IMG/VR virus record: IMGVR_UViG_3300027659_000033
Location: 1 to 63,887 of that record
DNA length: 63,887 nucleotides
Direction: 5' to 3' (one strand)
Source: a virus
In this document: positions 21,924-53,897 of the stretch, piece by piece
Layout of the letters: every line of letters starts with the position of its first letter
Numbering within the stretch: position 1 is the first letter of the stretch
Position numbers and translations under genes: made by a program
The notes under the pieces: generated by a model
Told to the model about the DNA's origin: nothing
Seen by the model: the letters and a program-made list of their open reading frames with translations, nothing else
The model's database searches: none

Positions 21924-22568
21924 TTAGAGTTTGGAGAGGAAATCAGACCAAACACGCATTTGTGTTTCTGCTAGTTGCGCAGAAGAGGCTTTTTTGATTT
22001 CTGTCTCATAATTTTCAATTTGTTGCGCCTTTAATAAACCATTATCCCAGATCCATTCAACACCTTCCATGATCCCGTTTACAAAAGCAGACGGAGCACT
22101 TGGGTCTTGAACAATATCAACTGTTGACAACACAAAGTCGTCATTAACAAAGGTTTGGCCATTTTTACTCGCAACGGTTCCCATACCACGACTAGAAACG
22201 CCTAATTGACAACCACCTTCCAAAAGTCCTTTCACAATTTTACCCATTGGTGTGTCAAGTATAAGCGCCTTTCCAACAACATCATTACCGTTCCATTTTA
22301 GTTCGGTAATGCGATGCGAAACTTTATCAAGGTTAATTGTAGGGCCGTCTGGGTGATTAAGTTCACCGACTGCACGTCCCTTATTAACATAGTCAGTAAC
22401 ATATTTGTTTACTGCACTTTCTAAAACTGTTTTAGGGTAAATACGACGATTGCGATTTACCTGCTCGGCCTGCATAAAGATGCCATCGATGATAAATTTC
22501 TTTTCACCATTTTCAGCCGCTTCTGAGATATACTTTAAATCTTCAGAATGTTCTGTTATTAACTTCAT
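21924..22568 (-). CDS. 21: Prohead maturation protease gp21
   Basis: Serine protease that cleaves scaffold, capsid and internal proteins at (L/I)-x-E sites during head maturation. The 214-aa protein (T4 gp21 212 aa) has the catalytic His in GELNHPDGP (H72) and the Ser in LGVSSRGMG (S125 or S126), the order of herpesvirus-like phage proteases. The N-terminal IDGIFMQAEQVNRNRRIYP block is typical. A perfect late promoter lies 5 nt before the start codon. Confidence 0.96.
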   Translation of the reverse strand: MKLITEHSEDLKYISEAAENGEKKFIIDGIFMQAEQVNRNRRIYPKTVLESAVNKYVTDYVNKGRAVGELNHPDGPTINLDKVSHRITELKWNGNDVVGKALILDTPMGKIVKGLLEGGCQLGVSSRGMGTVASKNGQTFVNDDFVLSTVDIVQDPSAPSAFVNGIMEGVEWIWDNGLLKAQQIENYETEIKKASSAQLAETQMRVWSDFLSKL

Positions 22569-22593: not shown

Positions 22594-22761
22594 TCAACCT
22601 TCAGTTTTAACTGGAGGCGTGTAAATACTTGATGTTAATTCAACTTTTTTAACTTCAAGCGTTGTACGTACTTTGTCACGTATCAAAGCATCAAAATTTG
22701 ATGCAGTAGAAGACGTGTCATTAGTTACAATACTATCAATAAATTCCTTTATTTTACTCAT
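22594..22761 (-). CDS. 67: Small prohead core protein, gp67-like (55 aa)
   Basis: A 55-residue gene from the ATG at 22761: MSKIKEFIDSIVTNDTSST, then FDALIRDKVRTTLEVKKVEL. Marine T4-like phages have a prohead core protein of this size and pattern (an IKxLIDAI-like start, a D-K-V centre, charged helix) between genes 20 and 21, annotated gp67 or gp68. Here it sits directly upstream of gene 21, 25 bp apart, with its own late promoter 8 nt before the ATG. The length, position and pattern agree; the family call is from memory. Confidence 0.72.
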   Translation of the reverse strand: MSKIKEFIDSIVTNDTSSTASNFDALIRDKVRTTLEVKKVELTSSIYTPPVKTEG

Positions 22762-22864: not shown

Positions 22865-23191
22865 TTAGGCCCACCAGATGTTGGGTATATTAGGGTCACT
22901 AGTCGGTCGTGGAATATAACTTTCATTGCCATCAGTATCATATGTTGTCTGATTTGATGACCAAACGATAAACACTTCACCACCATCTGGTATCGCTATA
23001 TCGACGAGATCACGAAAAAGCACCCAATATTGACCGTCTCCGTTGTGTTCGCCAATTTCGCAGAGAGCATGTTCGTGACTAGCAAGGTTGGAAACTATAT
23101 TTCCATCTAGATCTTGCTGTGCAAAACCATTGGCGAGCCCAAACTGTTCAGCAATCTGTTTCGATGGAAATTTAAGAATATAATCAGTCAT
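22865..23191 (-). CDS. Small fibre-associated protein, cassette A (108 aa)
   Basis: The start at 23191 (MTDYILKFPSKQ) is chosen because the paralogue at 41730-42056 begins identically (MTDYILRFSSKQ). The two proteins share an almost unchanged core LASHEHALCEIGEHNGDGQYW, then FRDLV-IAIPDG, WSSNQ and a C-terminal WW. It directly follows the 387-aa adhesin gene (1-bp gap). I do not recognise a family. A chaperone, cap or assembly partner of the preceding fibre is the natural inference, as T4-like fibres often need such helpers. Confidence 0.75.
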   Translation of the reverse strand: MTDYILKFPSKQIAEQFGLANGFAQQDLDGNIVSNLASHEHALCEIGEHNGDGQYWVLFRDLVDIAIPDGGEVFIVWSSNQTTYDTDGNESYIPRPTSDPNIPNIWWA

Positions 23192-23192
23192 A

Positions 23193-24356
23193 TTATACTG
23201 CAAATGGGGCAAATGTGGCGCACATAATACCAAAACTGGAATTTGTTCCAGCTGTACCAAAAGGACCTCTTCCGGTTACGCTAAGATTCATATTGTGTAT
23301 AGTGCCTCCACTGCTTGGAACCGCAATTGTTGCTACAGCAGAATTGCCAATAGTACTTCCAGCGGTACTATAAAACAAAGAAGCGGTACCTGCACCATCT
23401 GAACTTATCAATACATTATAGTTAGTTTGAAATCCGTTTGATGCAGCTGGGAAACCACTTAGCACAGCAGAGTATGTTGGCAACGTAGGTATTGTAGCAG
23501 CAGTAATATTAGTCGTAAAGTCTAAAACTGGCCCTCCACTAGAGTTCGACAATTGAAAAGTATTTCCAGACACATTGATCACAAAATAACACGAGGTTGT
23601 AGCAAGTCCAGCTCCACCAGTCAAGGCGGTGAATCGTATAATATCCCCATTGACAAAATTATGTCCAGTTGCTGTGATTATATCTGTAGCTGCATCTCCA
23701 GTCGCTGAAAATGAAACTCCGCTGTGTGCCCATAATCGGTATCCGTCTGCAGCTAAAAAAAGACCAACACCACGACCGGTTGGCACGCCTCCTGAAAGTG
23801 AGTTTGAAACACCAGCATAGTATGTAACATTACCACTAGCAACAAAACAGCTCGCGCATCGTAGATTAAATGAAAATGGGAAGTTCCAAGTCATTGACCC
23901 ACCAGACGCCGCGCTAATATAACACACACCCATATTGTGTTGAGCCCATGTGGTATGATCATGAGATGAACTAACACCAGTACTAAGAGATAGTATGTCG
24001 TTATTGTCTGTGTATGTCGTACCTGAACGTCCAATGTTTGCAGAGTTTAAACCTCCACGACTTGCGAGTGGACGATAGATGTTAAACCGCTGTATGACAC
24101 TGCTTGAAGACAACAATTCACGCCGTAGCGTGGTACGTGTTAGTGCACTAAATTCTGTAGAAGATACTTGTGAAGGTATGTCTAACTGCCCACTAGCTGT
24201 GCCGCTGAATGCAGGACTGACGAGAGTCTTATTAGACAAGTTTTCTGCTCCTGAACGAGTTGCAGGATCTACGATTCCTAGTGCAGAAAGAATTTGTGTT
24301 TTTTCCTCTGCTGTCGGCGGTGTTCCTGTTGGTAAGTTTCCTAAGTCGATTGGCAT
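23193..24356 (-). CDS. Tail fibre/adhesin protein, cassette A (387 aa)
   Basis: Paralogue of 42061-43224 (also 387 aa), with the shared N-terminal block ENLSNKTL-SP-F-G and the shared end FAPFA. The N-terminus has the motif PTAEEKTQILSALGI, seen in several fibre proteins here. Residues about 215-280 hold a small beta module (TGHNFVNGDIIRFTALTGG...CYFVINVSGNTFQLS) like the FCCH-type modules of phage tails. The mature protein is probably a virion adhesin; the ligand is unknown. It sits between the 522-aa adhesin and the 108-aa protein genes. Confidence 0.78.
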   Translation of the reverse strand: MPIDLGNLPTGTPPTAEEKTQILSALGIVDPATRSGAENLSNKTLVSPAFSGTASGQLDIPSQVSSTEFSALTRTTLRRELLSSSSVIQRFNIYRPLASRGGLNSANIGRSGTTYTDNNDILSLSTGVSSSHDHTTWAQHNMGVCYISAASGGSMTWNFPFSFNLRCASCFVASGNVTYYAGVSNSLSGGVPTGRGVGLFLAADGYRLWAHSGVSFSATGDAATDIITATGHNFVNGDIIRFTALTGGAGLATTSCYFVINVSGNTFQLSNSSGGPVLDFTTNITAATIPTLPTYSAVLSGFPAASNGFQTNYNVLISSDGAGTASLFYSTAGSTIGNSAVATIAVPSSGGTIHNMNLSVTGRGPFGTAGTNSSFGIMCATFAPFAV

Positions 24357-24366
24357 AGTTTATATA

Positions 24367-25935
24367 TCATGAAGTTTCCAAGAGTCCGACACCATTGTAT
24401 TGAATGGCAACACCATTGTAAGTGATTGGTTCAGATGTGGTTGTTGTAAGGGCTTGTAGTGACGTGTTTGGTAAATTTTTACTGTAATACTTAACTCTGG
24501 TTACAATTCCCAACGAATTTGCTATAAATTCAAGAAGTGTAACAGAATTTAATAGGTTTCCATTGTGGTTAATTGTTGTAATGGTTGATCCATTAAGAGA
24601 TGCACTACAAGTTATCGACTCAACTGAAATAGCAATCTTAAATCTGGTTGAAATTCTTACATTTGTAAAATAAGTTGGAGTTGATGCTCCATCAAATGCA
24701 ACTAAAGCTTCTGTATTATTATTTGCCCCAGGATTATTTCCATATAGCCATCTTCTATTTCCTCCGCTACTCAATATATATTGGTTAATTGATAAACCAC
24801 TAGATAATAATCCTTCAAAAACAAAAGTTCCTCCTCTAGTATTCCATATTCTACTAAATGCTGTTCCGCTAATATTATATATGTCAGTACTTCGAATGAC
24901 ACTGCCAAGTCGATAATTTGGTATATAGCTACTTTCACGACTTAATTCACATTGTGCACCCCAAACAACGATACCACTTGTAGTATCTCCAGCATAGGTA
25001 AACGTTGTTCCAGTTTGACCAACAAATAGATAGAGTCTGTTTGCAGTTGTAGCAGTAAATGTAGCACAACAACGATACCATCCATCTCTATATGGATATA
25101 TGCGAGCGCTCCACCCCGTTGCTGTGCTCGTGACAGATCCGGATCCAGTTAAACTAAATGTGGCGGAAGGAACTGGTGAAGATCCTACATGTATTCCAAA
25201 ACCAGTATATCCTGCAGCCTTTACAAAAGCAGAGACAGTATAGCTTGAACCTGAAACTATCCCAATTGTAGGATCATCAATTCGATGATTATCAAGTGTG
25301 TTTGACGGAATAAATTTTTCAGCAGTGAGTGATCCATCTGGTGCAATGTCAGTATTTGCTACAGGTTGTGATACGAGTCTTACCTGAGTCCAAACAGATG
25401 TATTGTCAAAACTTTCTGACATTTCTACTATGTTTGTTTTACTAATCTCGATCAATGCGCCTAAGCATAAACCAGTAATTGGATCATGATCAACACGAAG
25501 TCCTCGATAGGAGACAGACCAACTCGAAAGCGTTGTAGTTCCAACTTTGCTAGTCACAAGTAGCGTGATCGCTGTGTCGGTCTTGTGGATCAGTGTGCCA
25601 GTAATGTGTCGCTGTGCACCGATTTGGTCGTCACCGTCGGTGTCTTCCATCACAACAACGACTGAGTTGTTGAGCCAACCAACTACGCTGCCAGATGGAA
25701 CCTCAAACACAGCAACACCACCAACTGGAACCCTAGCAGGATTGAGCGATGTAGTGCTTCGCGTCTTTCCAACGATGCGTCCGTTTTGGTTTACAAATGT
25801 GCCTGAGCTTGCACGACTATGAACAGGATTTGGACCTGTTCGACTAACATTAGACTTGTCTGTAGAAAAGGCAATATCAAGCGCCGGTCCATAAGAACGT
25901 CGGTGCTGTTGCATTATAATATTCTTCAGTTCCAT
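24367..25935 (-). CDS. Tail fibre/adhesin with carbohydrate-binding-like jelly rolls, cassette A (522 aa)
   Basis: Paralogue of 43233-44819 (528 aa). Both share RASSGTFVN-NGRIVGKT near residue 40, the YRG-R-DHDPV segment, and a domain with YTVSAFVKAAGYTGFGIHV and DGWYRCCATF, a pattern typical of carbohydrate-binding beta-sandwich modules. The C-terminal half has a LamG/concanavalin-like pattern (RFKIAISVES-TCSASLNGS). It probably contacts host glycans. It follows the collagen-like gene and lies between portal and prohead genes, an unusual site for fibre genes. Confidence 0.78.
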   Translation of the reverse strand: MELKNIIMQQHRRSYGPALDIAFSTDKSNVSRTGPNPVHSRASSGTFVNQNGRIVGKTRSTTSLNPARVPVGGVAVFEVPSGSVVGWLNNSVVVVMEDTDGDDQIGAQRHITGTLIHKTDTAITLLVTSKVGTTTLSSWSVSYRGLRVDHDPITGLCLGALIEISKTNIVEMSESFDNTSVWTQVRLVSQPVANTDIAPDGSLTAEKFIPSNTLDNHRIDDPTIGIVSGSSYTVSAFVKAAGYTGFGIHVGSSPVPSATFSLTGSGSVTSTATGWSARIYPYRDGWYRCCATFTATTANRLYLFVGQTGTTFTYAGDTTSGIVVWGAQCELSRESSYIPNYRLGSVIRSTDIYNISGTAFSRIWNTRGGTFVFEGLLSSGLSINQYILSSGGNRRWLYGNNPGANNNTEALVAFDGASTPTYFTNVRISTRFKIAISVESITCSASLNGSTITTINHNGNLLNSVTLLEFIANSLGIVTRVKYYSKNLPNTSLQALTTTTSEPITYNGVAIQYNGVGLLETS

Positions 25936-25947
25936 GCTGTAAATTGT

Positions 25948-28080
25948 TTATATCAAATCCCAAACGTTTGTGCCTACCTTTTTAATTGCAAAGTTTTGGT
26001 CTGCAAGAATAGTTGGTGCAAGAGAACCCCCATTGATAGTGACTCCAACTCCAGCAACAAGGTTAATAGCTCCGGCTGTTGTAGCACGACGAAAATAAAC
26101 TACTGCTCCAGCAGTCCATGCGACAGCAGATTCTGGTGGAACAGTTATATATATCTGATCTACATGTACACATCTGATGTATTGATCTGTATCGCTGAGT
26201 GCAAGCGTACGAGCAGTCGCGGTTTCTGTGACTATGAGCGACTCGATTGAAGGGCCAATTGGACCAGGCGCTCCGTCATCTCCCTTTTGAAGTACAAAGT
26301 CTAAGGTTTGACTTGGACTTGTCCCAGTAATATTGACTTCTGGAAAACTTCCAGAGACTACAGTACCAATTGATAATACATTAGCTGGACCGGTCTCGCC
26401 TTGAAAACCTTGAACTCCTTGAATTCCTTGAATCCCTTGCTCACCTTGAACTCCTTGAATGCCTTGTTCACCAACGGCTCCAACAGCTCCTGAGAGATTT
26501 ACAATCCATGAAGTAAAAGTTCCATCACCTTCAGTGTCTGTAACTATAGCAATCATCTCGCCTGTAGTTGGGTTATAAGAGTCAATCTCAGCATGAATAT
26601 GATTGCTAATATTATGCGAAATAAGAACAGTCTGATTTGTGCTATATGATAAATCTGTTTCTACAGTAAGTGTAATTGTTGTGTCTATTGCTGGAATCAA
26701 CAGATTTGTAGATGATGTTGTCTGATATTTGTCACCAGCTAATCCGTGTTCGCCTTGAACTCCTTGAATTCCCTGAACTCCTTGAATTCCCTGAACTCCT
26801 TGAATGCCTTGAAGACCTTGCTCACCCTGAAGACCTTGCTCACCCTTTGCAGTAATAAGATCCCAAAAAAGACTGCCATTATATGGAGTGTCTCCAGTGT
26901 TTCCACCATGTGTATCTTTACGATAAAATAATTCGCCGTTATAGACAGCAACATCTCCAACTGCATAGCTTGTGCCAATGCTATATTGACCTGTATAATT
27001 CCATAATGCATCTGCACCATCTAAACCAGGTTCCCCGGGATCGCCTTTATCTCCCTTTGGGCCTTGTGATCCAGAACCGCCACTAGCTCCAACCCATTTT
27101 TTTGTTGATGCATCATATTTAAGATATGCACCATCAACTTTTGCAGTGGTGCGATCAACGTCATTTAAACGGCCAAGCCAAACTTCACCACCTCCACCAA
27201 TTGTAGAGAGTTGGTTATTGACCATACTCTGCCAACTCTTAAATGTTTTTTCTGATTTATCGATATAGCTATCAATATTTGTTTGAGCATTAGATATAAA
27301 CGGTTCAACTATACTGTTGATGTCAGGTATAGTTGCATCTTTTCCTGATGGACCTTCTGGTCCGACTTCACCCTGGGGTCCGACTTCACCACGCTCTCCT
27401 TGAATGCCTGTCTCACCGCGTTCTCCCTTTTCGCCCTGGGGTCCGACTTCACCACGCTCTCCTTGAATGCCTGTCTCACCGCGTAAACCTTGAGGGCCGA
27501 TTTCACCGCGATCTCCTTGCAACCCAACACTGCCTTGAAGCCCCTGCAATCCTTGCTCACCTCTTTCTCCTTGAATGCCTGTCTCGCCACGATCTCCCTT
27601 TTCACCCTGTGGACCGGTCTCGCCTTGTGGTCCCGTCTCACCGCTTAATCCTTGAAGTCCAATCTCGCCTTGAAGTCCTGTCTCACCACTCTCTCCTCTT
27701 TCTCCTTGAATGCCTGTCTCACCACGTAAACCTTGAGGCCCGATTTCACCGCGATCTCCTTGGAATCCAACCTCGCCTTGAATGCCCGTCTCACCACGCT
27801 CTCCGTGTGGACCGGTCTCGCCTTGAATGCCTTGTAATCCTATCTCACCCCGCTCTCCCTTTTCACCACGAAAACCTTGAGGTCCAATTTCACCTCTTAA
27901 GCCTTGAGGTCCACGCTCACCATTTGATCCTCTATCTCCTTTAGGTCCAGGAGTAGCTTCGATTGTACGAGTAGCATACTCTAAAGAATCGATCTTTTCT
28001 ACTATTGGTTCTAGTTGTTTTTGGAGTTTTTTATATAGAGCAACTGGTAATATAGCATTAACATCACTAAGATCTGACAT
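25948..28080 (-). CDS. Collagen-like repeat fibre protein (710 aa)
   Basis: Long Gly-X-Y tracts cover roughly residues 45-248 (units such as GERGETGIQGE), with shorter tracts near 337-352, 410-448 and 533-563. They are separated by globular parts, including one with LWNYTGQYSIGTSYAVGDVAVYNGELF, a carbohydrate-binding-like (CBM5/12-type) motif. Such tracts form trimeric triple helices in phage fibres. A short coiled coil (residues 15-40) may start trimerisation. It directly follows gene 20. The repeat DNA is prone to slippage, so length variation between relatives is expected. A role as a flexible virion fibre is inferred. Confidence 0.88.
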   Translation of the reverse strand: MSDLSDVNAILPVALYKKLQKQLEPIVEKIDSLEYATRTIEATPGPKGDRGSNGERGPQGLRGEIGPQGFRGEKGERGEIGLQGIQGETGPHGERGETGIQGEVGFQGDRGEIGPQGLRGETGIQGERGESGETGLQGEIGLQGLSGETGPQGETGPQGEKGDRGETGIQGERGEQGLQGLQGSVGLQGDRGEIGPQGLRGETGIQGERGEVGPQGEKGERGETGIQGERGEVGPQGEVGPEGPSGKDATIPDINSIVEPFISNAQTNIDSYIDKSEKTFKSWQSMVNNQLSTIGGGGEVWLGRLNDVDRTTAKVDGAYLKYDASTKKWVGASGGSGSQGPKGDKGDPGEPGLDGADALWNYTGQYSIGTSYAVGDVAVYNGELFYRKDTHGGNTGDTPYNGSLFWDLITAKGEQGLQGEQGLQGIQGVQGIQGVQGIQGVQGEHGLAGDKYQTTSSTNLLIPAIDTTITLTVETDLSYSTNQTVLISHNISNHIHAEIDSYNPTTGEMIAIVTDTEGDGTFTSWIVNLSGAVGAVGEQGIQGVQGEQGIQGIQGVQGFQGETGPANVLSIGTVVSGSFPEVNITGTSPSQTLDFVLQKGDDGAPGPIGPSIESLIVTETATARTLALSDTDQYIRCVHVDQIYITVPPESAVAWTAGAVVYFRRATTAGAINLVAGVGVTINGGSLAPTILADQNFAIKKVGTNVWDLI
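27345..27945. repeat. Collagen-coding tandem repeat DNA
   Basis: An imperfect array of 9-bp (Gly-X-Y) units grouped into longer copies; segments decoding to GERGETGIQGERG recur several times. This is coding repeat, not a CRISPR array. Confidence 0.85.
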
Positions 28081-28084
28081 GTCG

Positions 28085-29719
28085 TTATTCTTCTAGAATT
28101 TTAGTCATGCTCTCAATCATTTTTAATTGAGCTTCATGAATTTCTTCTTTATGAGTATTATCTATATGTAAATTGTTTTCGTTATTTGTAAACTCAGTAT
28201 CATCAACAGCGTCGCTAACTGTGTCATCAGTCGAACCTGAAGTATCATCTTCTGGTTTTTCTTCTGCAATCTCAGAATCCATTCTTTCAACGTCAGCGTC
28301 AGACTGATTTAGTATGTTACTGCGTACCCATTTGTCACTGTAATATTTACCAATATGAGAACTTATGGTATCAAGCATGCCTATGCGTTCTCTCATAATC
28401 TCAAAGTCTTTAAGCTCAGAAAAATAGTTATCTTCAATATAGTCAACTGATATGCCTTCACGTATAGTTTCCCAATCGGATTGAGTACAAATACCCTTTA
28501 ATATTAGTTGTACTCGTAGCGCCTCAATAAATATCAACGAAAACTTTTTACGCAGTCTGTTGATAAACTTTTGAAACTTAACCTCTTCCCGAGAAATTTC
28601 ACTCGCACGTCCAATATTAAATCCAGACTCGCTATCAAGACGATTAGCTGGTACATTTAGTGCACGATAAAGCTTCTTTTGGAAAAAGATTACGTCTTCA
28701 ATTTGGCTAAGATTGTCTCCGCCTGGAAGCGTAGTAATTTCTGTACCACGACCCCCTTCACGACGAGGCAACCAAAAATCTTCAAGCATACTCATGCTCT
28801 TACGGTCATCACGTATTTCGCCGGTATTTGCATCATACACAAGTTTGTTACGATACTTTGCCATAATCCCTTGTACATATTCCTCGGCCTTACCCTTTGG
28901 TAAGTTACCAATATCAATATAGAAGATACGACGTTCTGGCGCCCGTGATATACGATAAATCACGAGTGCATCTTCCATCATACGCAACTGATTTACGAGC
29001 TTTACACTCTTATGCAGATATGAAACAGCAAATTTATTGCTTTCATCAAGCATCCCAGAAGGAGCATAAACTATGCTATTTGGGTCAATTTTAAACCCGC
29101 TGCTGGTGTTAAAGTCATCTGAATATAAGAAATATTCTGCGGTAACTTCTGAAGTTTTTACTCCAGTATTTTTATCAACCTTATTGGTTATTTCTTTGAC
29201 CTTTTTAATCTTTAATGGGTCAATTGCTCTTAACTCCTTGATGCCCTCTTTTGGCTTTTTAGGGTCAACCATAATATGATAATACAACTTACCGTCAATA
29301 TACCACTTTCTAAAAATATCTTGACCGCTATAGTTAAACGACAACAGTTTAGTTATCTTATCAAACTCTTCAAGTATTTTTTTCTTAATGTTTTCAGGTT
29401 GCTCTAGATTGTCGAGTATAAGATTAACCGGAGAGCCATCAGAGTCAGACACTATTGCAGCATTTATAATGTCAGATATAGCTGAATCACATTCTGGTTG
29501 AATTGCTGCTGCACGACATTTTAGGATAATGTCCTTTTCATTTGTCAGTGCTGCGCCGTCAATATCAAGTACCTGACCATAATAACCAGCTGTAGCTGAT
29601 GAAGTTACAATAGAGGTACCATCATTTTCTACCGGAGCAGAAAATGATGGTACCTTATTAAAGTCAGGAGTATCTTTTTTATTGATTACCTTGGATAATT
29701 CATAGCCGAATAGCTTCAT
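28085..29719 (-). CDS. 20: Portal vertex protein gp20
   Basis: gp20 forms the dodecameric portal through which DNA enters and to which the neck attaches. The 544-aa sequence (T4 524 aa) has the marker segments RAPERRIFYIDIGNLPKGKAE, YLHKSVKLVNQLRMMEDALVIYR and the FW.PRREGGRGTEI-TLPGG block used for typing marine myoviruses. It follows gene 19 in the conserved order. The ATG lies 6 nt after a TATAAATA element. A 17-bp perfect hairpin (29614-29655) is built into codons about 22-35. Confidence 0.97.
   Translation of the reverse strand: MKLFGYELSKVINKKDTPDFNKVPSFSAPVENDGTSIVTSSATAGYYGQVLDIDGAALTNEKDIILKCRAAAIQPECDSAISDIINAAIVSDSDGSPVNLILDNLEQPENIKKKILEEFDKITKLLSFNYSGQDIFRKWYIDGKLYYHIMVDPKKPKEGIKELRAIDPLKIKKVKEITNKVDKNTGVKTSEVTAEYFLYSDDFNTSSGFKIDPNSIVYAPSGMLDESNKFAVSYLHKSVKLVNQLRMMEDALVIYRISRAPERRIFYIDIGNLPKGKAEEYVQGIMAKYRNKLVYDANTGEIRDDRKSMSMLEDFWLPRREGGRGTEITTLPGGDNLSQIEDVIFFQKKLYRALNVPANRLDSESGFNIGRASEISREEVKFQKFINRLRKKFSLIFIEALRVQLILKGICTQSDWETIREGISVDYIEDNYFSELKDFEIMRERIGMLDTISSHIGKYYSDKWVRSNILNQSDADVERMDSEIAEEKPEDDTSGSTDDTVSDAVDDTEFTNNENNLHIDNTHKEEIHEAQLKMIESMTKILEE
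29614..29655. repeat. Perfect 17-bp inverted repeat inside the portal gene
   Basis: The arms 29614-29630 and 29639-29655 are exactly complementary around an 8-nt loop. The repeat lies within the coding sequence, 64 nt after the start codon, and encodes the segment VPSFSAPVENDGT. Confidence 0.9.
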
Positions 29720-39825: not shown

Positions 39826-40493
39826 AAAATACCAATATCATAGGCATGCCGATAAACTAATTCCTCTTGATTAACTATATTGGGATATTTAGCACTAATG
39901 CTATCTAGGTTAAGGTGAAAATCATTTACAATCTTATGCATATTTTCTAACGTTCCAATATAAAAATTATCAACCCCTATTATACTGTGCGAATAGTCTG
40001 GATACTTAAATGCAAAACTTTGTTTTTTAGCGATCAGTCGACGTAAATGTTTTGGTGGAGTGTAACATATTGGAGTCGTAAAATAATCATAACGTGTATT
40101 AATGATTGCATCATATTTAACACCGGATGTATAGGCTGCATTTATAACTGAAACCTGGCCAGCCCACATTCGTTTCCATGCAATTATAGGACATATACTT
40201 TTACAAACTACTCCAGTTTTAATTCCACGTATTTTTACCTTTAAGTCGTTTTCTATAATCACTTTAGACACATTAAAGTTTTTAAAATAACTGCGCAGTA
40301 ATTCTTCCTTAACTTCAAAAATATTAGATCTATCGAGTGTTTTATAACTACTTTTTGCCTCAGACTCGGTCCACGCATGACAATAAATGTCAAGTGAGTG
40401 CCCATCGGACTCACACAGACTAATAAACTCTCGTAAAGAACTAGTGAAAAGTCCGTCCCTGATATGTCCTCGTATACAAAACGCTATTTTCAT
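39822..40493 (-). CDS. Glycosyltransferase-like protein, paralogue 1 (223 aa)
   Basis: Tandem paralogue of 39154-39825, of the same length and motif order ([22 protein letters not shown]-type segment, [26 protein letters not shown]). A stretch of about 26 bp coding the IAWKRMWAG region is the same in both genes, so the duplication is fairly recent or under conversion. The ATG overlaps the stop of the mutase gene upstream (ATGA). It is a likely transferase using a sugar nucleotide; the donor could be UDP-galactofuranose given the neighbour. This is inference. Confidence 0.62.
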
Positions 40494-41488
40494 AAATCTC
40501 TTAACTTTAGCATAACATGCTTAATTGCCATCCACATGTCTAAATATTTATAAGTTGCAAGACGCCCAACAAAAATTACTCCTTCCTCCTCCTTTGCGAG
40601 TGTCTCATAGCGGCGATACATTTCTTGTCCCTCACCCCAAGGAATTGGGTAAAATGGCACGTCGTTTGGTCCGCACTCCTTTGGATATTCTCGAGTAACC
40701 ACTGTTGGGCCAACATGACCCGGCGTCCAAGCGCTGTGATCATAGACACGAGTGTATTCCACATCTTTGTTATTTTGATTAACAATAAACGTATCAGTCT
40801 TTTCACAAAGTACGTCATGCTCAAAACGCAACGAACGATAAGGTAATCGTCCATACACCGTTCCAAAATAACTATCAATTTTACCAGTATACACAATCAA
40901 GTCAGACGGCTGACGTTCATGCACCCAACGATCTTCCTCACAGTTTAAGTGTACGGTAATGCCGTCAAGCATTCGCTTAAACATTTCCGTATAACCATCC
41001 TTTGGAACACACTGATACTTTTGTCCCTCAAACCAGGTAGGGTCCTCAGCATCTGCAGTTTTAGGAATGCGATTTGTAATCGTCTTTGGAATCTCTTCAA
41101 ACGGCACTCCCCATTGCTTTTCGCTATAGTCCTTAAAAATATACTCTATAATCTCTTCTTGTGAGAGCTCTCTTCCAAGCTCAGAGATTGTTTTTTTACT
41201 GTATGGCAAACTAACGAGTCCAAGGCGTGTTTGACCCTTAGGCTGTAGTGCAAATGGAATCCATTCAGTATAACGACTTAAAAACGCATAGACGTCTTCG
41301 TCATCAGTATGGAAAATATGCGGGCCATACTGATGAACAAGTGTATTTGTAATATAGGCATCGGCGCAGTTTCCTCCAATATGAGAACGAGTCTCATAAA
41401 TCTCTACGTGGTATCCTTTTTCTTTTAGCAACACCGCTGCGGAGATACCCGACAGCCCACACCCAATTATTTTAGCACTTTTTTTCAT
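40490..41488 (-). CDS. glf: UDP-galactopyranose mutase (Glf)
   Basis: FAD enzyme converting UDP-galactopyranose to UDP-galactofuranose. I chose the ATG at 41488 ([14 protein letters not shown], 332 aa); a GTG at 41506 would add six residues. The Rossmann FAD motif GCGLSG...[10 protein letters not shown], the [11 protein letters not shown] block with its catalytic-site His, [16 protein letters not shown] and the C-terminal [12 protein letters not shown] segment with its FAD-contact Arg are all present, at a slightly short length (E. coli about 367 aa). It forms an overlapping operon with the two glycosyltransferase-like genes. Confidence 0.93.
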
Positions 41489-41525
41489 AAAATAGTATTT
41501 TATCACGGTTTACGCCTAAAGTAAA

Positions 41526-41729: not shown

Positions 41730-42056
41730 TTAACCCCACCACAAACTCGGTACGTTGGGGTCGTTAGACGGTCGACGTACTGCTGTTTCGTTGCCATCTT
41801 CATCAGTGGTAATTTGATTTGATGACCAGTAAATAAAGTCGCTAGCTCCGTCTGGAATTGCTATGCCAACGAGGTCACGAAAAAGTATCCAATATTGTCC
41901 GTCGCCGTTGTGTTCGCCAATTTCGCATAGGGCATGCTCGTGACTGGCGAGTGACGAAACTACCATACCGTCTTCGTCTCTATGTGCAAATCCTGTTGCA
42001 AGACCAAACGCTTCGGCAACCTGTTTAGAAGAGAATCGTAATATATAATCAGTCAT
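41730..42056 (-). CDS. Small fibre-associated protein, cassette B (108 aa)
   Basis: Paralogue of 22865-23191, with the same start MTDYIL, the same length and the identical core LASHEHALCEIGEHNGDGQYW. An ATG further upstream exists but lies inside the preceding adhesin gene and is not conserved in the paralogue, so 42056 is chosen. It follows the 387-aa adhesin gene by 4 bp, as in cassette A. The conservation of this tiny protein is higher than that of the adhesin beside it, which points to a fixed partner-binding or assembly role. No family is recognised. Confidence 0.75.
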   Translation of the reverse strand: MTDYILRFSSKQVAEAFGLATGFAHRDEDGMVVSSLASHEHALCEIGEHNGDGQYWILFRDLVGIAIPDGASDFIYWSSNQITTDEDGNETAVRRPSNDPNVPSLWWG

Positions 42057-42060
42057 AAAG

Positions 42061-43224
42061 TTATCCCGCAAACGGTGCAAATGATGCAGTAATTACTGCC
42101 ATTGCAGTATTACCAGTAACTGAACCCATTGATCCAGAGAATGTGCATGTCTGTGTCATCACCGGAGTGCCTCCACCAGTTGAAGCAACTGCAAGTGTTG
42201 TAGTCGGTGTATTACTTAAAATTGTATTTCCCGCTATGCCATAGTACAAAGATGCAGTGCCAAGCCCGTCTGAACTTATCAATATATTAACGTTTGTCTG
42301 TAGACTGGCCGTAGCAAAAATTGGGGAAAATATTGGTTTTTTTGCAACTTGAGTGTTTGTCAATATAGCTATTGATGGAATAAATACTGTTCCAGTAGCA
42401 GAAATTTCTGAAATTCTAAACGTAGTGTTACTTGGCGTTTCGCATATAAAATATGTTGTAGTTGTTAGGACTCCGCTACCTGCTTGTGCTGCAGTAAATC
42501 GAACGCGATCTCCAACAGTAAATCCATGCGAAGTTCCAGTCGTTATTGTCATAAGTCCACTAGTATCACATATTACTGAAATTGTCCCATCTTGAAACCA
42601 CAACCTAAAACCATTAATATCACATATTATGCCAATACCACGACCACATGGAAGACCCCCATTCCAATTATTACTAATTCCAGCCCAATATTCTGAGGTT
42701 GATCCGGTCACTTGTTCACAATTATTAAGCTTTAAAGCTATTGAAAATGGATTATTCCAATCAAGTGCCCCGCCACTCGCAGAGTTGAGATAGCACGTAC
42801 CAAATTCTTTGCGTGCCCATGAAGTATGATTACAAAGTTTACCACTACCATCGTCTGATCCTGTATTTAGTATTGCTCTGGTTCTAGTATCCATCCATAT
42901 ATCGTCGCCACTATTCCCAATTGTCAAAGCACTTGTTCCACCTCTAACATTCCATGTCCTGGTAGTGTTAAACCGTTGTACAGTACTTTCTTGCATCATC
43001 AACTCACGTCGTATGGTAGAGCGATTTATGACACTGTGCTGAGTAAGAGAAACTTGTTGAGTTAACTCAAGTTGGCCATTGCATTCGCCATTAAATGTAG
43101 GACTAATAAGTGTTTTATTAGACAGATTTTCAGGAGCTGTTCTAGTAATAGTTTCGTTTAAACCTAGAGCGCCGAGTACAGCACTTTTTTGTGTAGATGT
43201 TAAGGTAGTTAATTCGATTGCCAT
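42061..43224 (-). CDS. Tail fibre/adhesin protein, cassette B (387 aa)
   Basis: Paralogue of 23193-24356. Shared blocks are PENLSNKTLISPTF, the STIRREL / TLRREL segment, the SASGGALDWN-type segment, a TSHGFTVGDRVRFTAAQAG module (FCCH-like) and the ASFAPFA end. Divergence is greatest in the middle, as expected for a receptor-contact region. It is a probable virion adhesin; the ligand is unknown. A perfect late promoter lies 5 nt before the ATG. Confidence 0.78.
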   Translation of the reverse strand: MAIELTTLTSTQKSAVLGALGLNETITRTAPENLSNKTLISPTFNGECNGQLELTQQVSLTQHSVINRSTIRRELMMQESTVQRFNTTRTWNVRGGTSALTIGNSGDDIWMDTRTRAILNTGSDDGSGKLCNHTSWARKEFGTCYLNSASGGALDWNNPFSIALKLNNCEQVTGSTSEYWAGISNNWNGGLPCGRGIGIICDINGFRLWFQDGTISVICDTSGLMTITTGTSHGFTVGDRVRFTAAQAGSGVLTTTTYFICETPSNTTFRISEISATGTVFIPSIAILTNTQVAKKPIFSPIFATASLQTNVNILISSDGLGTASLYYGIAGNTILSNTPTTTLAVASTGGGTPVMTQTCTFSGSMGSVTGNTAMAVITASFAPFAG

Positions 43225-43229
43225 AAATA

Positions 43230-43237
43230 TATTTATA
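43230..43237 (-). promoter_or_regulatory. T4-type late promoter (387-aa adhesin, cassette B)
   Basis: TATAAATA on the minus strand, 5 nt before the ATG at 43224, overlapping the end of the 528-aa gene. Confidence 0.75.
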
Positions 43238-44819
43238 ATGTTATTGTAACGCCTTCATCATATAGCGTAATTTGTTCTGTTCCTAGAAGTAGTGTTTCGG
43301 TTGTGGTTGTAGTAAGTGCTTGAAGCGTGGTGTCAGACATATTTTTAATATAGTACTTGACCTCTGTTACAATCCCAGTGTTATTTGCCAGTATTTCAAA
43401 TACTGGTGAAACTATATTAAATAGACTTCCGTCATGACTTATTGTACTAATAGTTGAACCGTTTAAAGACGCTCTACAAGTCGACCCTTCAACTGAAATT
43501 GCAATTTTATTTTTATTTGTAAGACGAACATCGCTAAAGTAAACTTTTGCGGAACCATCCCACGCAACCAACGCTTCATTAGTAAATCCACTACCTGGAA
43601 AGTTTGCATACAACCAGCGTTTAGATAAACTGTGTGAAAGAATCCGTAGAGAACTTCCAGCAATATTTTGCGCTAACTGAAATTCTATAAAAAATGTGCC
43701 ACCTTTGGTATTCCATATTTCACCAAATTGAGTTGTTGGAACACTGCACACATCAAGTGCGCGCACTGTAGCATCTATTGTTGTGGGTATATAACTACTT
43801 ACATTTCTACCAACTTCCACTTGATAACCCCACACATAAGCGGTACGCCCTGCTCCAATGTCAGTTCCAGGAACTCCAGTTGAAGAGGTAAGAATAAAGT
43901 CTGTTGTGGTCGCCGCCGCTGCATTTGTTGTCCCACTAACAACTAAGCGTACCCACCCATTTGGAAAAGATATTGCTCTTCCAACTGTAGTAGAGCCGTT
44001 TGCATCAAAGGTTAATGTATCAAGATCAAAAAATGGAACTGCATTTCCAACTGGTCGTAACGTATTAAAATCCAAAGATACATATCTCCAGTTGCCCTTT
44101 TTAACGAAAGCACTAACTGTATAATACGCGCCTAACGAGTATGTTATGCTATTAAGTGATCGACAAAATCCGCCGTAGTCGCCACTAATAGAAGTTAGTA
44201 ACGTAGCTTTATTTGTACCGTCTGGGCTGTTTTCTGTTGAAAGCACTCGAGTGCCATTTCCGGTCCATAGATGCATTTCACCGCTGTGAGTCACAAAATT
44301 TGTTGAGTTGCGCTCAACAAGTAGTCCAGGACATTTAAGCGAGACTGGATCATGGTCGCGCCTCGCTCCGCGATAAGAGACCCACCAATTTGATGCTATA
44401 GTTGTACCAATTTTACCAGTAACTTTAAGAGTAAGTGTAGTGTCGGTCTTATGTATTATATTTCCAGCAATGTTATGACCGTCACCAGACGAGTCCGGTA
44501 ATAAAAATTTATCGTCTCCAGTAAGGTCTTGCATTATAACAACTGCTGCACCGTCAAGCCAACCAACTACATCACCTGGCGGCACATCAATTGTTACAAC
44601 TGAACCAACAGGGTATCGAAGAGGATTAAGAGGCGTAACTGTTTTAGTTTTACCGACAATTCTTCCATTTTCATTTACAAACGTACCAGAACTTGCGCGT
44701 ATAAGTGTTGGTGTCGGGCCAACTTGACCCATACCAGACACATAATCTGCGTAATCAATATCAATAGACGGCCCAATATCTCTTCTTCTCTGTTGAGAAA
44801 TTATATGATTTAAACTCAT
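43233..44819 (-). CDS. Tail fibre/adhesin with carbohydrate-binding-like domains, cassette B (528 aa)
   Basis: Paralogue of 24367-25935. The shared N-terminal half includes RRRDIGPSIDID, RASSGTFVNENGRIVGKT and YRGARRDHDPV. The middle has YTVSAFVKKGNWRYVSLDF, then FPNGWVRLVVSG, a pattern of carbohydrate-binding beta-sandwiches. The C-terminal part (ISVEGSTCRASLNGS) looks LamG-like. It is preceded by a late promoter at 7 nt and followed by the 387-aa and 108-aa genes of the cassette. Confidence 0.78.
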   Translation of the reverse strand: MSLNHIISQQRRRDIGPSIDIDYADYVSGMGQVGPTPTLIRASSGTFVNENGRIVGKTKTVTPLNPLRYPVGSVVTIDVPPGDVVGWLDGAAVVIMQDLTGDDKFLLPDSSGDGHNIAGNIIHKTDTTLTLKVTGKIGTTIASNWWVSYRGARRDHDPVSLKCPGLLVERNSTNFVTHSGEMHLWTGNGTRVLSTENSPDGTNKATLLTSISGDYGGFCRSLNSITYSLGAYYTVSAFVKKGNWRYVSLDFNTLRPVGNAVPFFDLDTLTFDANGSTTVGRAISFPNGWVRLVVSGTTNAAAATTTDFILTSSTGVPGTDIGAGRTAYVWGYQVEVGRNVSSYIPTTIDATVRALDVCSVPTTQFGEIWNTKGGTFFIEFQLAQNIAGSSLRILSHSLSKRWLYANFPGSGFTNEALVAWDGSAKVYFSDVRLTNKNKIAISVEGSTCRASLNGSTISTISHDGSLFNIVSPVFEILANNTGIVTEVKYYIKNMSDTTLQALTTTTTETLLLGTEQITLYDEGVTITL

Positions 44820-44826
44820 ATTTTTA

Positions 44827-44834
44827 TATTTATA
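44827..44834 (-). promoter_or_regulatory. T4-type late promoter (528-aa adhesin)
   Basis: TATAAATA on the minus strand, 7 nt before the ATG at 44819. Confidence 0.75.
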
Positions 44835-45018
44835 GATCGTCGAGATGACGACTTAAGACTAGCAGCGAACTAGCTGTCACTCCTTGTAAATCAATGTCTG
44901 TGAGTTCAGACAACATTCGCCCACCTTCTGAAAATGTAGAGGCACTTATAATGTTTGTTCCACTTATAACAGATTGAAGCGACGGCGTCTCACGTATAAT
45001 TGATGTTATATCAGACAT
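44830..45018 (-). CDS. Small hypothetical protein (62 aa)
   Basis: Unrecognised. Ser/Thr-rich with hydrophobic patches (SIIRETPSLQSVISG, then ISASTFSEGGRMLSEL and ASSLLVLSRHLDDL). Its ATG overlaps the stop of the 112-aa gene, so the two are probably translated together. It may be a small virion or fibre-joining protein. Confidence 0.6.
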   Translation of the reverse strand: MSDITSIIRETPSLQSVISGTNIISASTFSEGGRMLSELTDIDLQGVTASSLLVLSRHLDDL

Positions 45019-45356
45019 TAAATTGGTTGTGTTGAGGCTGGTGATATTTCAACTTGCCCTTCTGCCACCCGCACCACGTGACCTCCAACATTATATATTT
45101 CAACATCATAAACATACCGCCCTGACTTCATGGCTCGAGTTTGAACCGCCGTTAGTGATAAGGCTACCTGTCCTTCTGGAGGAGTATTAATTGATGTAGC
45201 AAATGGTACAGAGTTACTTGATGTGTAGCTCTTACGAATTTGAGCTCGTGATGAGTATCCAGTAAGGTTATATGGTAACCCGTTGGCATCTTTTACGTCA
45301 ATAATTGATGAGTAGGTACTGCCCTGATCGATATAAATGTTATTGTATATTGCCAT
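45018..45356 (-). CDS. Small beta-sandwich virion protein (112 aa)
   Basis: The sequence begins with IYIDQGSTYSSIIDVKDANGLPYNLTGYSSRAQIR and continues with VALSLTAVQTRAM and GRYVYDVEIYN. This pattern, a strand, a G-x-P-x-D/N-L-T-G turn and Y-x-Y-D-V-E, is seen in phage baseplate or tail-fibre N-terminal beta-sandwich domains (BppU-like). That assignment is by pattern only. A late promoter lies 7 nt before the ATG. Confidence 0.68.
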   Translation of the reverse strand: MAIYNNIYIDQGSTYSSIIDVKDANGLPYNLTGYSSRAQIRKSYTSSNSVPFATSINTPPEGQVALSLTAVQTRAMKSGRYVYDVEIYNVGGHVVRVAEGQVEISPASTQPI

Positions 45357-50084: not shown

Positions 50085-53000
50085 TTATATTTTTATGCGT
50101 GTAAAGTTTGTTCTTTTGTTCCGGGTCTCCAGGCCCACGTTAGTGGGGTCGATTGAATACCTATTATAACCAGCAAAATAAATAGTGCCATTTTTCAAAT
50201 GTAAGATTGTGTGGTAGGCCCCATTCACTTCGCTGTGTATTGCCTGTATATCAATTATATTATTGACCACTTCTGACTGCAAGTTTAAACGTAACCAGCC
50301 TCGCAGCAGATCCGGGGCACCAGCACCAGCACAACCATATGTATTAGCACCAGTTACAAATAAATAATACAGTCCATCTGACTGGCGAAATGCCTTCATA
50401 AAGTTAACTAAATTACCATAATAACCATAGCCAACCCAAAAGTCTTTTATATCATATCCAGGCGGAAGTGCTCCGATTTTTCCCCACCCATCTTCCGGCC
50501 TGCCTGCATTCGAGGACCCACCAAATTTCCCAAGAGAAGAGTGGCCCAAACACCATACTTGGTATAATGTAGTCGGCGAACTTAGAAATCCTATTGAACG
50601 CACTACAGCCTTGGTGGTATGTATACTATTTGATGTTGAACTGGTTAAAATATTAGTACCAGATGCTGAAATAGCAACAGCAGCACCAAGCCCGATGGTG
50701 GCGATCCCCGACTCTTGCTGAACACGAGTTAATAGTTTCCATTTACCATCATCATATTTAAATGTGCGGACTTCACCAGCATTTAAATTGATACTAGCCG
50801 CCCTTGGCGATCCAACTGCTAAAATTGCACCATCGCGTGAAAGTGCCACACTTGAACCACTCTTCTCTCCTCCTAGCGGCGTAAAGGCGGTCTGATAAAA
50901 TTGACGACCAAGTATATCATCGCCAAGTTGAATCCATGATGACATTTGGGAACTATAACTAAACACTCGCGTTGAACCAGCATCTGCTCCACCTATGGCC
51001 GAACCGGGAGCTCCAACCGCGAGTAAAGTTCCTGAGCCATTTAAGGAAATATTAATCGCAGTATCACCAGCAGCTCTTCCTACTATATCTCCTCCAACTT
51101 GGACCCAGACATTTGCAACTAGAGTATACACTCTCACGACGCCTGCTGTCGATATACCATATGAAGCAATAGCTATTACAGTTCCTGAGGTATTAATTGC
51201 AACCTTTATGCCACATTGTTGATTTGTTGCAGTACCAGTTATGGGGTCACCCACTGTCTCAGTTCCTGAAGCGGTTATTCGTCTAATATAGACTCTTCCA
51301 GTGCTGTTATTATGGCCTGGTGCTCCAGCGATAAATGTATTGCCATCACCCGATAATGCAACAGATGATCCCAATTTAGAGGCGTTTAACTCTCCATTAA
51401 ATGATATGCCACGCTGTGTCCATGTACTATCAATTGTAGAATAGTCATATACACGCACTTGACCAAGTTGTGTAGTTCCCACATGTTGGCCATCAGGTGC
51501 GCCTATACACAATCTAGACGCATCAGCACTTAAACTCACAGAACCACCAAACAATGAGGTAGTTTCAGAACTAATTATAGGTTGCCCATAATTTACCCAC
51601 GTGCTATTGTTATATATGTAACATTGCACCCTCGCTAAGGCAGGATCCCCAACTGAAATTATATTTCCAGAATCATCTGAACTTATTGGCGTTGTTATCG
51701 TAAAATCCCCTTGCCTGCCAGCCCTTGTAGTAGCTAGTATATCTGAACCTCTTTGGGCAATAAGGTTTTTACCTTGTCCAGAAATATAAATTGCCTCACG
51801 ACTTACAAGAGCTGTATTAACTGGTTGCGGCTGTTCAGCAGTAGTATATACTCTATCAATAGTAAAATCTTGATTGTCGAAAATAACATCAGGAGAAGAT
51901 TTATTTGTAGTAGTGAGGTTATTTCCAAAAATTTTGTTTCCGCCATAGCCCCATGCATAAAGAATGTTATTTGGTGCTTTTATGAATATTGATGTAAAAC
52001 CGCCCCAACCATTGCCATATATATCAAAACCAGTATAGTCTACAATATCTGGCAGTGTTATGGTATTAAAAGTACTATTAATTGAAATAAAATTTCCTTT
52101 ACCGCTTTGTCCATTACCACCATATCCAGACATGCGTATACCAGAAGGAGTTAGTGCAACACAAATTGTACAGTCATTAGTTCCATTCCAACCACCAACC
52201 AAGAATGCATCAAGTACATCTTCTAAGACAGGCGTATTTTCGCCGGGTGATTTAATTGCAGTTGTTGTAGATGCTCCAGAGTTTCCACGACCAAGTACAC
52301 CAAACTCATTATTACCAGATACCCACAAACGATTCGAAGTATCAATAACGGCAACATTACTAATACTACTGTCTCCTGAGATTATAACTTTACGAATTTT
52401 ATTGTTTGTGCTATAATTATAGAGTGGCGTGTAAGCCTTTGTCCAATATGCGAGTTCGACCGGGTTGTTATTTGCTAGGCCTAAATATGGCACAATATTA
52501 AACATATTATATGTAGCCTCGCCCATAACCCATAATTCTCCGTTTTCGTCTAATGCACACATGTTAGTTTGTGTGACATATAACTCAGCCGCACGACGAT
52601 TGTCTGGAAGCGGCATTTCAGTGTGTCCATATTGATCATTTGAAGGCAACCCTAGGATCGCCGGGTTTCTAGTAAAACCAAATCGGCTTTTTATATTTGG
52701 TCCAGTTATAATTGGTACGCCATCATCATTTATGTAACAAAACTCTCCAACGGAAGGAGCAGATATATATGGACTATACGCTGGGCGTGACACTAATTTT
52801 TTAACAGGACCAACTTTAAATGTTTTTGAGTCAACATAATCACGAGTAGCAACACGGGCCCGGGTATTAGGATCGCTTCCCTCATATAAGCTGCTATTGG
52901 TGTCCCATGACGGCCCTCCAAAACTTAGTTTACTAGGATCAATCGCGTTAGATGTTATTTTATCTCCACCAACTGAAAATGGAGCCACGCCAAGTTCACG

Positions 53001-53897
53001 ACTTACTGGATCAATATACAGTGTATTGTCATGCCTTAAATTTAAAATTCCAGTTCCACCACTGGCAAGTGAGAAAGACTGTAAAGATGTTCCATCTTGT
53101 ATTATATCAAAGGCATTACCACGATCTATAAAAGTGTTAACTACTGAATCTGGAGTTGCCTTTATAATTTTACCAGATGTATTTGGTAAAGTATACCACC
53201 ATGCAGAATTATACCCAACCGGTAGTCCTTGTATATCACCATTTTCAGCGGTATAAATGTTACCATACGTGTTGAGTATGAGAGCGGCGAGCTCCGGATA
53301 GTCTCCACCATTAAAACGACCTCCGCTGCAACGTAACCAATTTGATGGAACGCTGCCACCTTGAAGTGCATAGTCGATAATTGAACCAACAGGCAATACT
53401 ATATTTGTGGTAACAACCTTTGCTGCTCCTTCGCGCTGTATAACGGAAATTATGCTACTTAGCGTCTTCCATGATAAACTGCTACCAGATTTTTCTAATA
53501 TTGAAGATTCTGCTGGATTATTATTCGGAATTGTGTATAAATTTTGTCCAAGTTGTAATTCAGAATTTATTATTATTCGGTCACTAACAAATGGTCCAGT
53601 AGTTCCTAAAACCCCACTATCTTCATAGAATCCAGCAGTGCCAACTTTTAAAATTGGAAAAGCCTTTGTACCACCCGAGAAAGTTTTTGCTCCAGTTATT
53701 GTTTGAGAATCATCTAACGTAACTGTTCGTAACAACGCAGACTGCGTTTGTCCTGCGCTGTAGAATAACGGTGAAATACTATCATTTATAGTAACAAGTT
53801 GATCTATAACACCATTAGTCTTTTTACGCCAGACGTCAAAAGTATCACTATTACTAACTCCGGTCGTAGAAAACTCTGAAAATTGAATTGAATCCAT
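50085..53897 (-). CDS. Giant tail fibre with collar, RCC1-like and FG-GAP-like propeller repeats (1270 aa)
   Basis: Residues about 165-250 match the phage tail collar domain (LPVGSIIDYALQGG, NWLRCSGGRFN). Residues about 440-720 and 1110-1265 carry RCC1-type units (ELWVMGE, LWVSGNNEFGVLGRG, YAWGYGGNKIFG, VWCLGHSSLGKFG), and residues about 770-1090 carry FG-GAP/integrin-like units (GGSVSLSADASRLCIGAPDG, GSSVALSGDGNTFIAGAPG). Both modules build beta-propellers. The fibre therefore may present two propeller heads at the baseplate. The N-terminal 60 residues probably anchor it. An AATAAATA element lies 6 nt before the ATG. Confidence 0.85.
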   Translation of the reverse strand: MDSIQFSEFSTTGVSNSDTFDVWRKKTNGVIDQLVTINDSISPLFYSAGQTQSALLRTVTLDDSQTITGAKTFSGGTKAFPILKVGTAGFYEDSGVLGTTGPFVSDRIIINSELQLGQNLYTIPNNNPAESSILEKSGSSLSWKTLSSIISVIQREGAAKVVTTNIVLPVGSIIDYALQGGSVPSNWLRCSGGRFNGGDYPELAALILNTYGNIYTAENGDIQGLPVGYNSAWWYTLPNTSGKIIKATPDSVVNTFIDRGNAFDIIQDGTSLQSFSLASGGTGILNLRHDNTLYIDPVSRELGVAPFSVGGDKITSNAIDPSKLSFGGPSWDTNSSLYEGSDPNTRARVATRDYVDSKTFKVGPVKKLVSRPAYSPYISAPSVGEFCYINDDGVPIITGPNIKSRFGFTRNPAILGLPSNDQYGHTEMPLPDNRRAAELYVTQTNMCALDENGELWVMGEATYNMFNIVPYLGLANNNPVELAYWTKAYTPLYNYSTNNKIRKVIISGDSSISNVAVIDTSNRLWVSGNNEFGVLGRGNSGASTTTAIKSPGENTPVLEDVLDAFLVGGWNGTNDCTICVALTPSGIRMSGYGGNGQSGKGNFISINSTFNTITLPDIVDYTGFDIYGNGWGGFTSIFIKAPNNILYAWGYGGNKIFGNNLTTTNKSSPDVIFDNQDFTIDRVYTTAEQPQPVNTALVSREAIYISGQGKNLIAQRGSDILATTRAGRQGDFTITTPISSDDSGNIISVGDPALARVQCYIYNNSTWVNYGQPIISSETTSLFGGSVSLSADASRLCIGAPDGQHVGTTQLGQVRVYDYSTIDSTWTQRGISFNGELNASKLGSSVALSGDGNTFIAGAPGHNNSTGRVYIRRITASGTETVGDPITGTATNQQCGIKVAINTSGTVIAIASYGISTAGVVRVYTLVANVWVQVGGDIVGRAAGDTAINISLNGSGTLLAVGAPGSAIGGADAGSTRVFSYSSQMSSWIQLGDDILGRQFYQTAFTPLGGEKSGSSVALSRDGAILAVGSPRAASINLNAGEVRTFKYDDGKWKLLTRVQQESGIATIGLGAAVAISASGTNILTSSTSNSIHTTKAVVRSIGFLSSPTTLYQVWCLGHSSLGKFGGSSNAGRPEDGWGKIGALPPGYDIKDFWVGYGYYGNLVNFMKAFRQSDGLYYLFVTGANTYGCAGAGAPDLLRGWLRLNLQSEVVNNIIDIQAIHSEVNGAYHTILHLKNGTIYFAGYNRYSIDPTNVGLETRNKRTNFTRIKI

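Follow-up and report, generated by a model that had tools for sequence, protein, structure and literature searches.

The head spikes of RcGTA bind capsule polysaccharide, and the short N-terminal peptide of the spike is held in a base pentamer (PMC7296036, PMC10218006). The gene for the spike fibre, Rcc01080 (NF048003), has a small partner upstream, the gene for the base Rcc01079, and none downstream, where rcc01081 and the following genes are capsule genes (PMC10218006). The fibre begins with IALGLGLGL, and its Leu/Gly-repeat (LGLG) anchor binds the base pentamer. A second type of arrangement, in which a small gene downstream of a receptor-binding fibre gene encodes a chaperone, is established for Pam3 gp25 (PMC9608196) and V22 gp27 (PMC7289586); these proteins and Tfa assist their own fibres (PMC9608196, PMC7289586, PMC10579305).

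We analyzed a 63,887-nt stretch of viral DNA (IMG/VR record IMGVR_UViG_3300027659_000033, positions 1 to 63,887; hereafter, the window). Judged by its genes, the window is a fragment of a marine T4-like myovirus: the T4-type families and phage genes matched in it include terminase, tail sheath, portal gp20, protease gp21, scaffold and major head protein, and the nearest isolate by portal protein was phage C48C1 (Kyanoviridae; 55% identity). Two cassettes on the minus strand, A (25935-22865) and B (44819-41730), both have the order adhesin, 387-aa protein, 108-aa protein. Cassette A consists of a 522-aa adhesin (24367..25935), a 387-aa second fibre (23193..24356) and a 108-aa partner (22865..23191), and cassette B consists of a 528-aa adhesin (43233..44819), a 387-aa second fibre (42061..43224) and a 108-aa partner (41730..42056).

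A preliminary description of this DNA had recognized the two cassettes as paralogous three-gene units, and all six ORFs were indeed found in place on the minus strand. BLASTP comparison of A with B gave 42% identity for the adhesins (E 1.7e-109), 39.8% for the 387-aa proteins (E 1.5e-87) and 72% for the 108-aa proteins (E 9e-62), a similarity that, as an alignment result, is far beyond chance. The smallest protein is thus the best conserved (72% versus 42% and 40%), as had been claimed, and its 20-residue core, ASHEHALCEIGEHNGDGQYW, is unchanged in both copies. The partner genes start at internal ATG codons (23191 in A and 42056 in B), which lie 1 nt and 4 nt, respectively, past the preceding stop codon. 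Versions of 131 and 116 aa were rejected as products of spurious upstream TTG starts, the real length being 108 aa. Since the 387-aa protein of cassette B is closer to that of the related locus L003 (63% identity; L numbers denote the loci compared) than to that of cassette A (40%), A and B are old paralogues at separate sites and not a fresh copy. The two cassettes may bind two receptors.

Residues 159-379 of adhesin A (24799..25461, alignment limits) matched the RcGTA head spike fibre Rcc01080 (PDB 6tb9_F3, E 8e-21), and the protein scored 100.7 bits against NF048003, almost threefold the cutoff of 36; it also matched phrog_5939, a tail protein family (E 1.8e-41). The 522-aa protein is therefore, on homology, an adhesin of a known sugar-binding type, and by analogy it would bind sugar in this phage too. 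The earlier view that the unit had no prior description does not hold for this component: the adhesin class is known, the partner superfamily is uncharacterised, and the three-gene variant is new. Like Rcc01080, with which the homology extends over about 220 residues, the window adhesin has a short N-terminal stretch before the sugar-binding-type domain and a small gene adjacent to it. RcapMu58, a phage homologue of Rcc01080, does not extend beyond the spike domain and lacks a partner, unlike the window adhesins.

The surroundings of the two cassettes differ: cassette A is surrounded by head genes, and cassette B lies near fibre genes. Upstream of cassette A is the gp20 portal gene (28085..29719, minus strand; phrog_213, E 4e-188; PF07230, E 6e-169), and downstream are a 55-aa ORF (22594..22761, minus strand), which by position only is equivalent to the 46-aa ORF preceding gp21 in C48C1, and the gp21 prohead protease gene (21924..22568, minus strand). 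Between gp20 and cassette A, within the head gene cluster and directly upstream of the adhesin, we observed a gene for a 710-aa collagen-like, repeat-containing fibre protein (25948..28080, minus strand; Pfam Collagen, E 1.9e-51). Upstream of cassette B are a 62-aa and a 112-aa ORF (44830..45356, minus strand) that resemble L-shaped tail fibre assembly genes (phrog_1084 and phrog_3304). A 1270-aa protein encoded in the fibre/baseplate cluster (50085-53897, minus strand) matched phrog_4219 (regulator of chromosome condensation).

This position raises the question of whether the cassette A adhesin is mounted on the capsid, as head spikes of the RcGTA type and not as tail fibres, which would be compatible with a chaperone role of the 108-aa partner. 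The homology to a head spike fibre points in this direction, as does the placement of the cassette within the head gene cluster, between gp20 and gp21, a site at which C48C1 has none. In addition, the N-termini of relatives are rich in Leu and Gly (MRLGLGNNL, MKYALGNML), and their adhesin gene is often immediately preceded by one for 84-111 aa, an arrangement comparable to the Rcc01079 base and its fibre. However, the window adhesins begin with MELKNIIMQQHRR and MSLNHIISQQRRR and are missing the LGLG anchor, and the adjacent upstream gene encodes a collagen-like protein and no spike base. Moreover, the small upstream genes of the relatives have no detectable homology to Rcc01079, and cassette B, whose anchor is of the same type, is a neighbour of tail-fibre genes. 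Baseplate proteins (8env, 9b45) and annotated tail proteins contain the spike domain too, so homology alone cannot place the adhesin on the head. We regard capsid mounting as possible but lean against it. That one virion carries the module at both ends, with cassette A forming capsid spikes and cassette B on the tail, is unlikely; such a phage would use both head and tail to capture surface polysaccharide, as has been suggested for gene transfer agents.

A loose Gly-containing N-terminal motif was found in 33 of 63 adhesins of the relatives. Genes of 84-100 aa lie directly upstream of the adhesin in L012, L020, L027, L019, L011 and L040, where many of the N-termini are Leu/Gly-rich, and resemble the Rcc01079 gene in place and size. 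Their candidacy as Rcc01079 homologues was rejected because homology was undetectable; in a control, RcapMu57 matched Rcc01079 (E 1.2e-5). Among the relatives, the N-terminal type of the adhesin co-varies with the upstream gene, which encodes a collagen-like C-terminus, a 202-208-aa protein or a protein of approximately 84-111 aa. For the collagen-like protein next to cassette A, it is the C-terminal type that changes together with the N-terminus of the adhesin behind it. This co-variation suggests that the adhesin N-terminal peptide probably docks on the upstream gene product.

The 108-aa partner had no significant relative in Pfam, NCBIfam or the PDB, and tblastn with three queries found no 108-type member in 50,697 phage records. 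Relatives were present in at least 164 stretches of viral contigs. In a scan of bacteria and archaea with one genome per species (84,980 species), a partner gene was found on one contig only, a 39-kb contig of a Verrucomicrobia MAG (L069), which is possibly a misbinned or infecting phage and a clue to the host. Profile comparison linked the N-terminal half of the 108-aa family to phrog_18574 (hhalign probability 95, E 3.9e-8, score 48); in a column-shuffle control, the best of 200 scores was 18, and none of the 200 reached 48. The protein encoded at L058:3566-3943 bridges the two types (phrog_18574, E 8.8e-6), and when 2600 ORFs, taken from loci fetched around the 108 family, were searched with the phrog_18574 profile, the top 20 matches were all partner genes. 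From these comparisons, the 108-aa family is judged homologous to phrog_18574, which is listed as of unknown function; neither phrog_18574 nor phrog_1361 was mentioned in the literature searched.

Members of phrog_18574 and phrog_1361 include S-WAM2 gp054, HK639 gp75, AhSzq-1_113, AZ21E_0020 and P12024S gp11. The phrog_18574 type, which is like the 108 type by profile, is about 94-116 aa long and is encoded immediately behind a spike-domain adhesin, the two genes slightly overlapping or standing a short distance apart; its C-terminal half is GWHVNVR...RVWA-like, whereas that of the 108 type reads YWVLFRDL...PNxWWA. Megablast found no DNA of the AZ21 partner in E. coli genomes. Aromatic residues W56, F59, W77 and W107 are invariant in the 108-aa family. 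Residues 11-21 and 71-74 form the only helices in our AF2 model of the 108-aa protein (pLDDT 82); with Foldseek this model had no significant match in the PDB, and its best match among viral models was an unnamed 81-aa protein (E 6e-4). Several partners (L034:6001-6393, L045, L047, L051 and L055) carry extra residues, up to about 25, inserted after the GEH motif; this loop is variable, although the protein is conserved elsewhere.

The loci of the relatives were retrieved with the small protein alone, so their adhesin context is free of selection. Of 87 non-identical partner genes, 5 were cut by a contig end, leaving 82 testable. The partner directly followed a spike-domain adhesin in 72 of these and was separated from it by one ORF in the other 10; as background, 26 of 588 other ORFs in the same loci (4.4%) followed an adhesin. 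Members of the 108-aa family located away from adhesins, which the preliminary description had named as evidence that would refute it, numbered 0/82. In 64 cases, the partner overlapped the preceding gene by exactly 4 nt. The phrog_18574 type likewise follows spike-domain adhesins across T4-like, T5-like and lambdoid phages (16/16 testable members, from cyanophages, T5-like Aeromonas and E. coli phages, and HK639). In a forward check, the 522-aa query found the adhesin gp10 of Nonlabens phage P12024S, which is followed by the 99-aa gp11, a match to the phrog_18574 profile (E 1.2e-5). The adhesin-partner module is thus more general than this phage.

In the converse direction, spike-domain proteins without a partner occur in RcapMu, RcWaterboi, ctOK67, two Klebsiella phages, RHph_X2_25 and S-CAM4; the rate rests on nine isolates, two of which have a partner. 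Dependence of the partner on a C-terminal LamG-like domain of the adhesin was rejected, since P12024S gp10, HK639 gp74 and others have a partner without this domain. The partner averaged about 66% identity, compared with 30-36% for three segments of the adhesin (N-terminal, spike and C-terminal). Partner divergence correlated with that of the spike domain (Mantel r 0.35, p 0.001) and the adhesin C-terminus (r 0.28) and weakly with that of the N-terminal 30 aa (r 0.14, p 0.06); these correlations are modest, and the compared genes share phylogeny.

We consider it fairly probable that each cassette is an exchangeable host-adhesion module comprising a docked adhesin of the RcGTA-spike type, a coupled chaperone-like 108-aa partner and an inserted second fibre. 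The first gene would encode a sugar-binding adhesin anchored in the virion by its short N-terminal peptide on the upstream product, and the last gene a translationally coupled partner, most likely an intermolecular chaperone for folding or assembly of the adhesin. In this lineage, the 387-aa second fibre would have been inserted between them, and the adhesin would have gained a 25-residue C-terminal tail that probably joins it to the second fibre. The parts of this proposal that the sequences show directly are the homology, the order of the genes and their overlap or close abutment, the exchange of modules and the correlation of the tail with the second fibre. The chaperone role is most likely in view of the close linkage, the conservation of the partner and its constant adhesin company. 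Several observations count against it: the partner shows no link in sequence or fold to any known chaperone, many spike-domain proteins have no partner, and in L042 the partner has been swapped behind a near-identical 387 gene, which is unexpected of a strictly specific chaperone.

The partner resembles Tfa, T4 gp38, Pam3 gp25 and V22 gp27 (DUF4376) as a small gene downstream of a receptor-binding fibre gene. However, chaperones of the Tfa type have 162-195 aa, and the 108-aa partner has no detectable similarity to them in sequence or fold; Pfam matches to Tfa or DUF4376 were absent among 55 partner members at E values up to 1, and the C-terminal helical trimerisation domain of Pam3 gp25 is absent from the predicted 108-aa structure. 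The partner most likely works like Tfa or gp38 yet stands outside those families by sequence. It also differs from the S74 intramolecular chaperone (e.g., that of the fibre at 47108-45483 in the window), which is part of the fibre polypeptide and not a separate gene product.

Tfa of Mu stays attached to its fibre, and the 108-aa protein could likewise be a permanent virion subunit, such as a cap, tip or connector on the adhesin, and no transient chaperone. The linkage and gene overlap are the same evidence for either role, the four invariant aromatic residues would suit a subunit, and exchange of the partner between phages is expected for a receptor-facing part. However, no other part of the module is as well conserved as the partner, the opposite of a tip that contacts receptors, and we consider a permanent subunit rather unlikely. 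That the protein merely shares the adhesin operon and has an unrelated function, for example in superinfection exclusion or host take-over, would be in keeping with the failure to assign it a fold or a family of known function. This is highly improbable, since the linkage in 82/82 and 16/16 cases across unrelated phage groups is hard to explain without physical partnership, and most of the 108-type set has the 4-nt overlap. An adhesin chaperone remains the reading that we prefer.

Although the module with a small partner is duplicated with diverged adhesins, as the preliminary description had proposed, three genes are not its basic unit. Most relatives have only the adhesin and the partner, which recur together, and the 387-aa gene is optional; members of the 387-aa family occurred in 11 loci, every one a three-gene cassette. 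Gene order in the relatives thus shows a basic unit of two genes, to which the 387-aa protein adds an optional second fibre. In this family, roughly the first 60 residues are conserved, and L125 and L155 have a different sequence in place of the remainder, a pattern characteristic of a fibre that is anchored and can exchange its binding part. The AlphaFold model of the 387-aa protein (7 sequences) had a pLDDT of 39.5 and was discarded.

The presence of the second fibre coincides with a C-terminal extension of the adhesin. Exactly 25 residues follow the LQxLT motif in 7/7 three-gene adhesins examined, and 1-3 residues follow it in 57/57 measurable two-gene adhesins; the extensions in the window lie at 24370..24444 (A, past ...LQALT) and 43236..43310 (B). 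The slot of the second fibre is taken in L011 and L047 by a fibre whose C-terminus looks S74-like by eye, and the adhesin tail there is different and 24 residues long. The extension therefore probably connects the adhesin to the second fibre. The intervening ORF is not always a fibre: at L022:5358-6008, a CxxC-containing, HNH-like ORF (by eye), starting with the CxxC, lies between the partner gene and a tail-less adhesin, and an endonuclease may have invaded this pair.

Comparison of the gp20-gp21 site among relatives revealed conserved flanks (gp20 about 77-87% where well covered, gp21 about 79-97%) around variable content: two-gene cassettes in L034 and L148, three-gene cassettes in L001, L042 and L155, and, in C48C1, portal, 122 aa, 46 aa and gp21 with the cassette absent. 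In L042, identity to the window was about 0.9 as far as the early portion of the 108 gene, where it dropped to 0.55-0.66. This sharp drop behind a nearly unchanged 387 gene indicates that the partner is exchangeable on its own and argues against strict one-to-one specificity. Of the earlier proposal, the self-contained receptor-binding module with a dedicated small partner (0/82 away from adhesins) is supported.

These findings mark the gp20-gp21 cassette as a natural place for exchanging host-recognition modules, and they raise the question of head spikes on T4-like environmental phages. They also propose a concrete function for a small-protein superfamily listed as of unknown function: in T4-like, T5-like, lambdoid and marine phages, its members constantly neighbour spike adhesins of the gene-transfer-agent type and are probably their chaperones. 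Where such adhesins are produced as recombinant bacterial probes, the partner may have to be co-expressed.

Cassette B recurs in L002-L007, with the same three downstream genes in L003, L004, L006 and L007, where these were checked. Just downstream of cassette B in the window, a gene at 40490-41506 (minus strand) appears, on sequence judgement, UDP-galactopyranose mutase-like; its best PHROG match was phrog_9677, of unknown function. It is 86% conserved in L003, L004, L006 and L007, and its predicted product may alter a host surface sugar.
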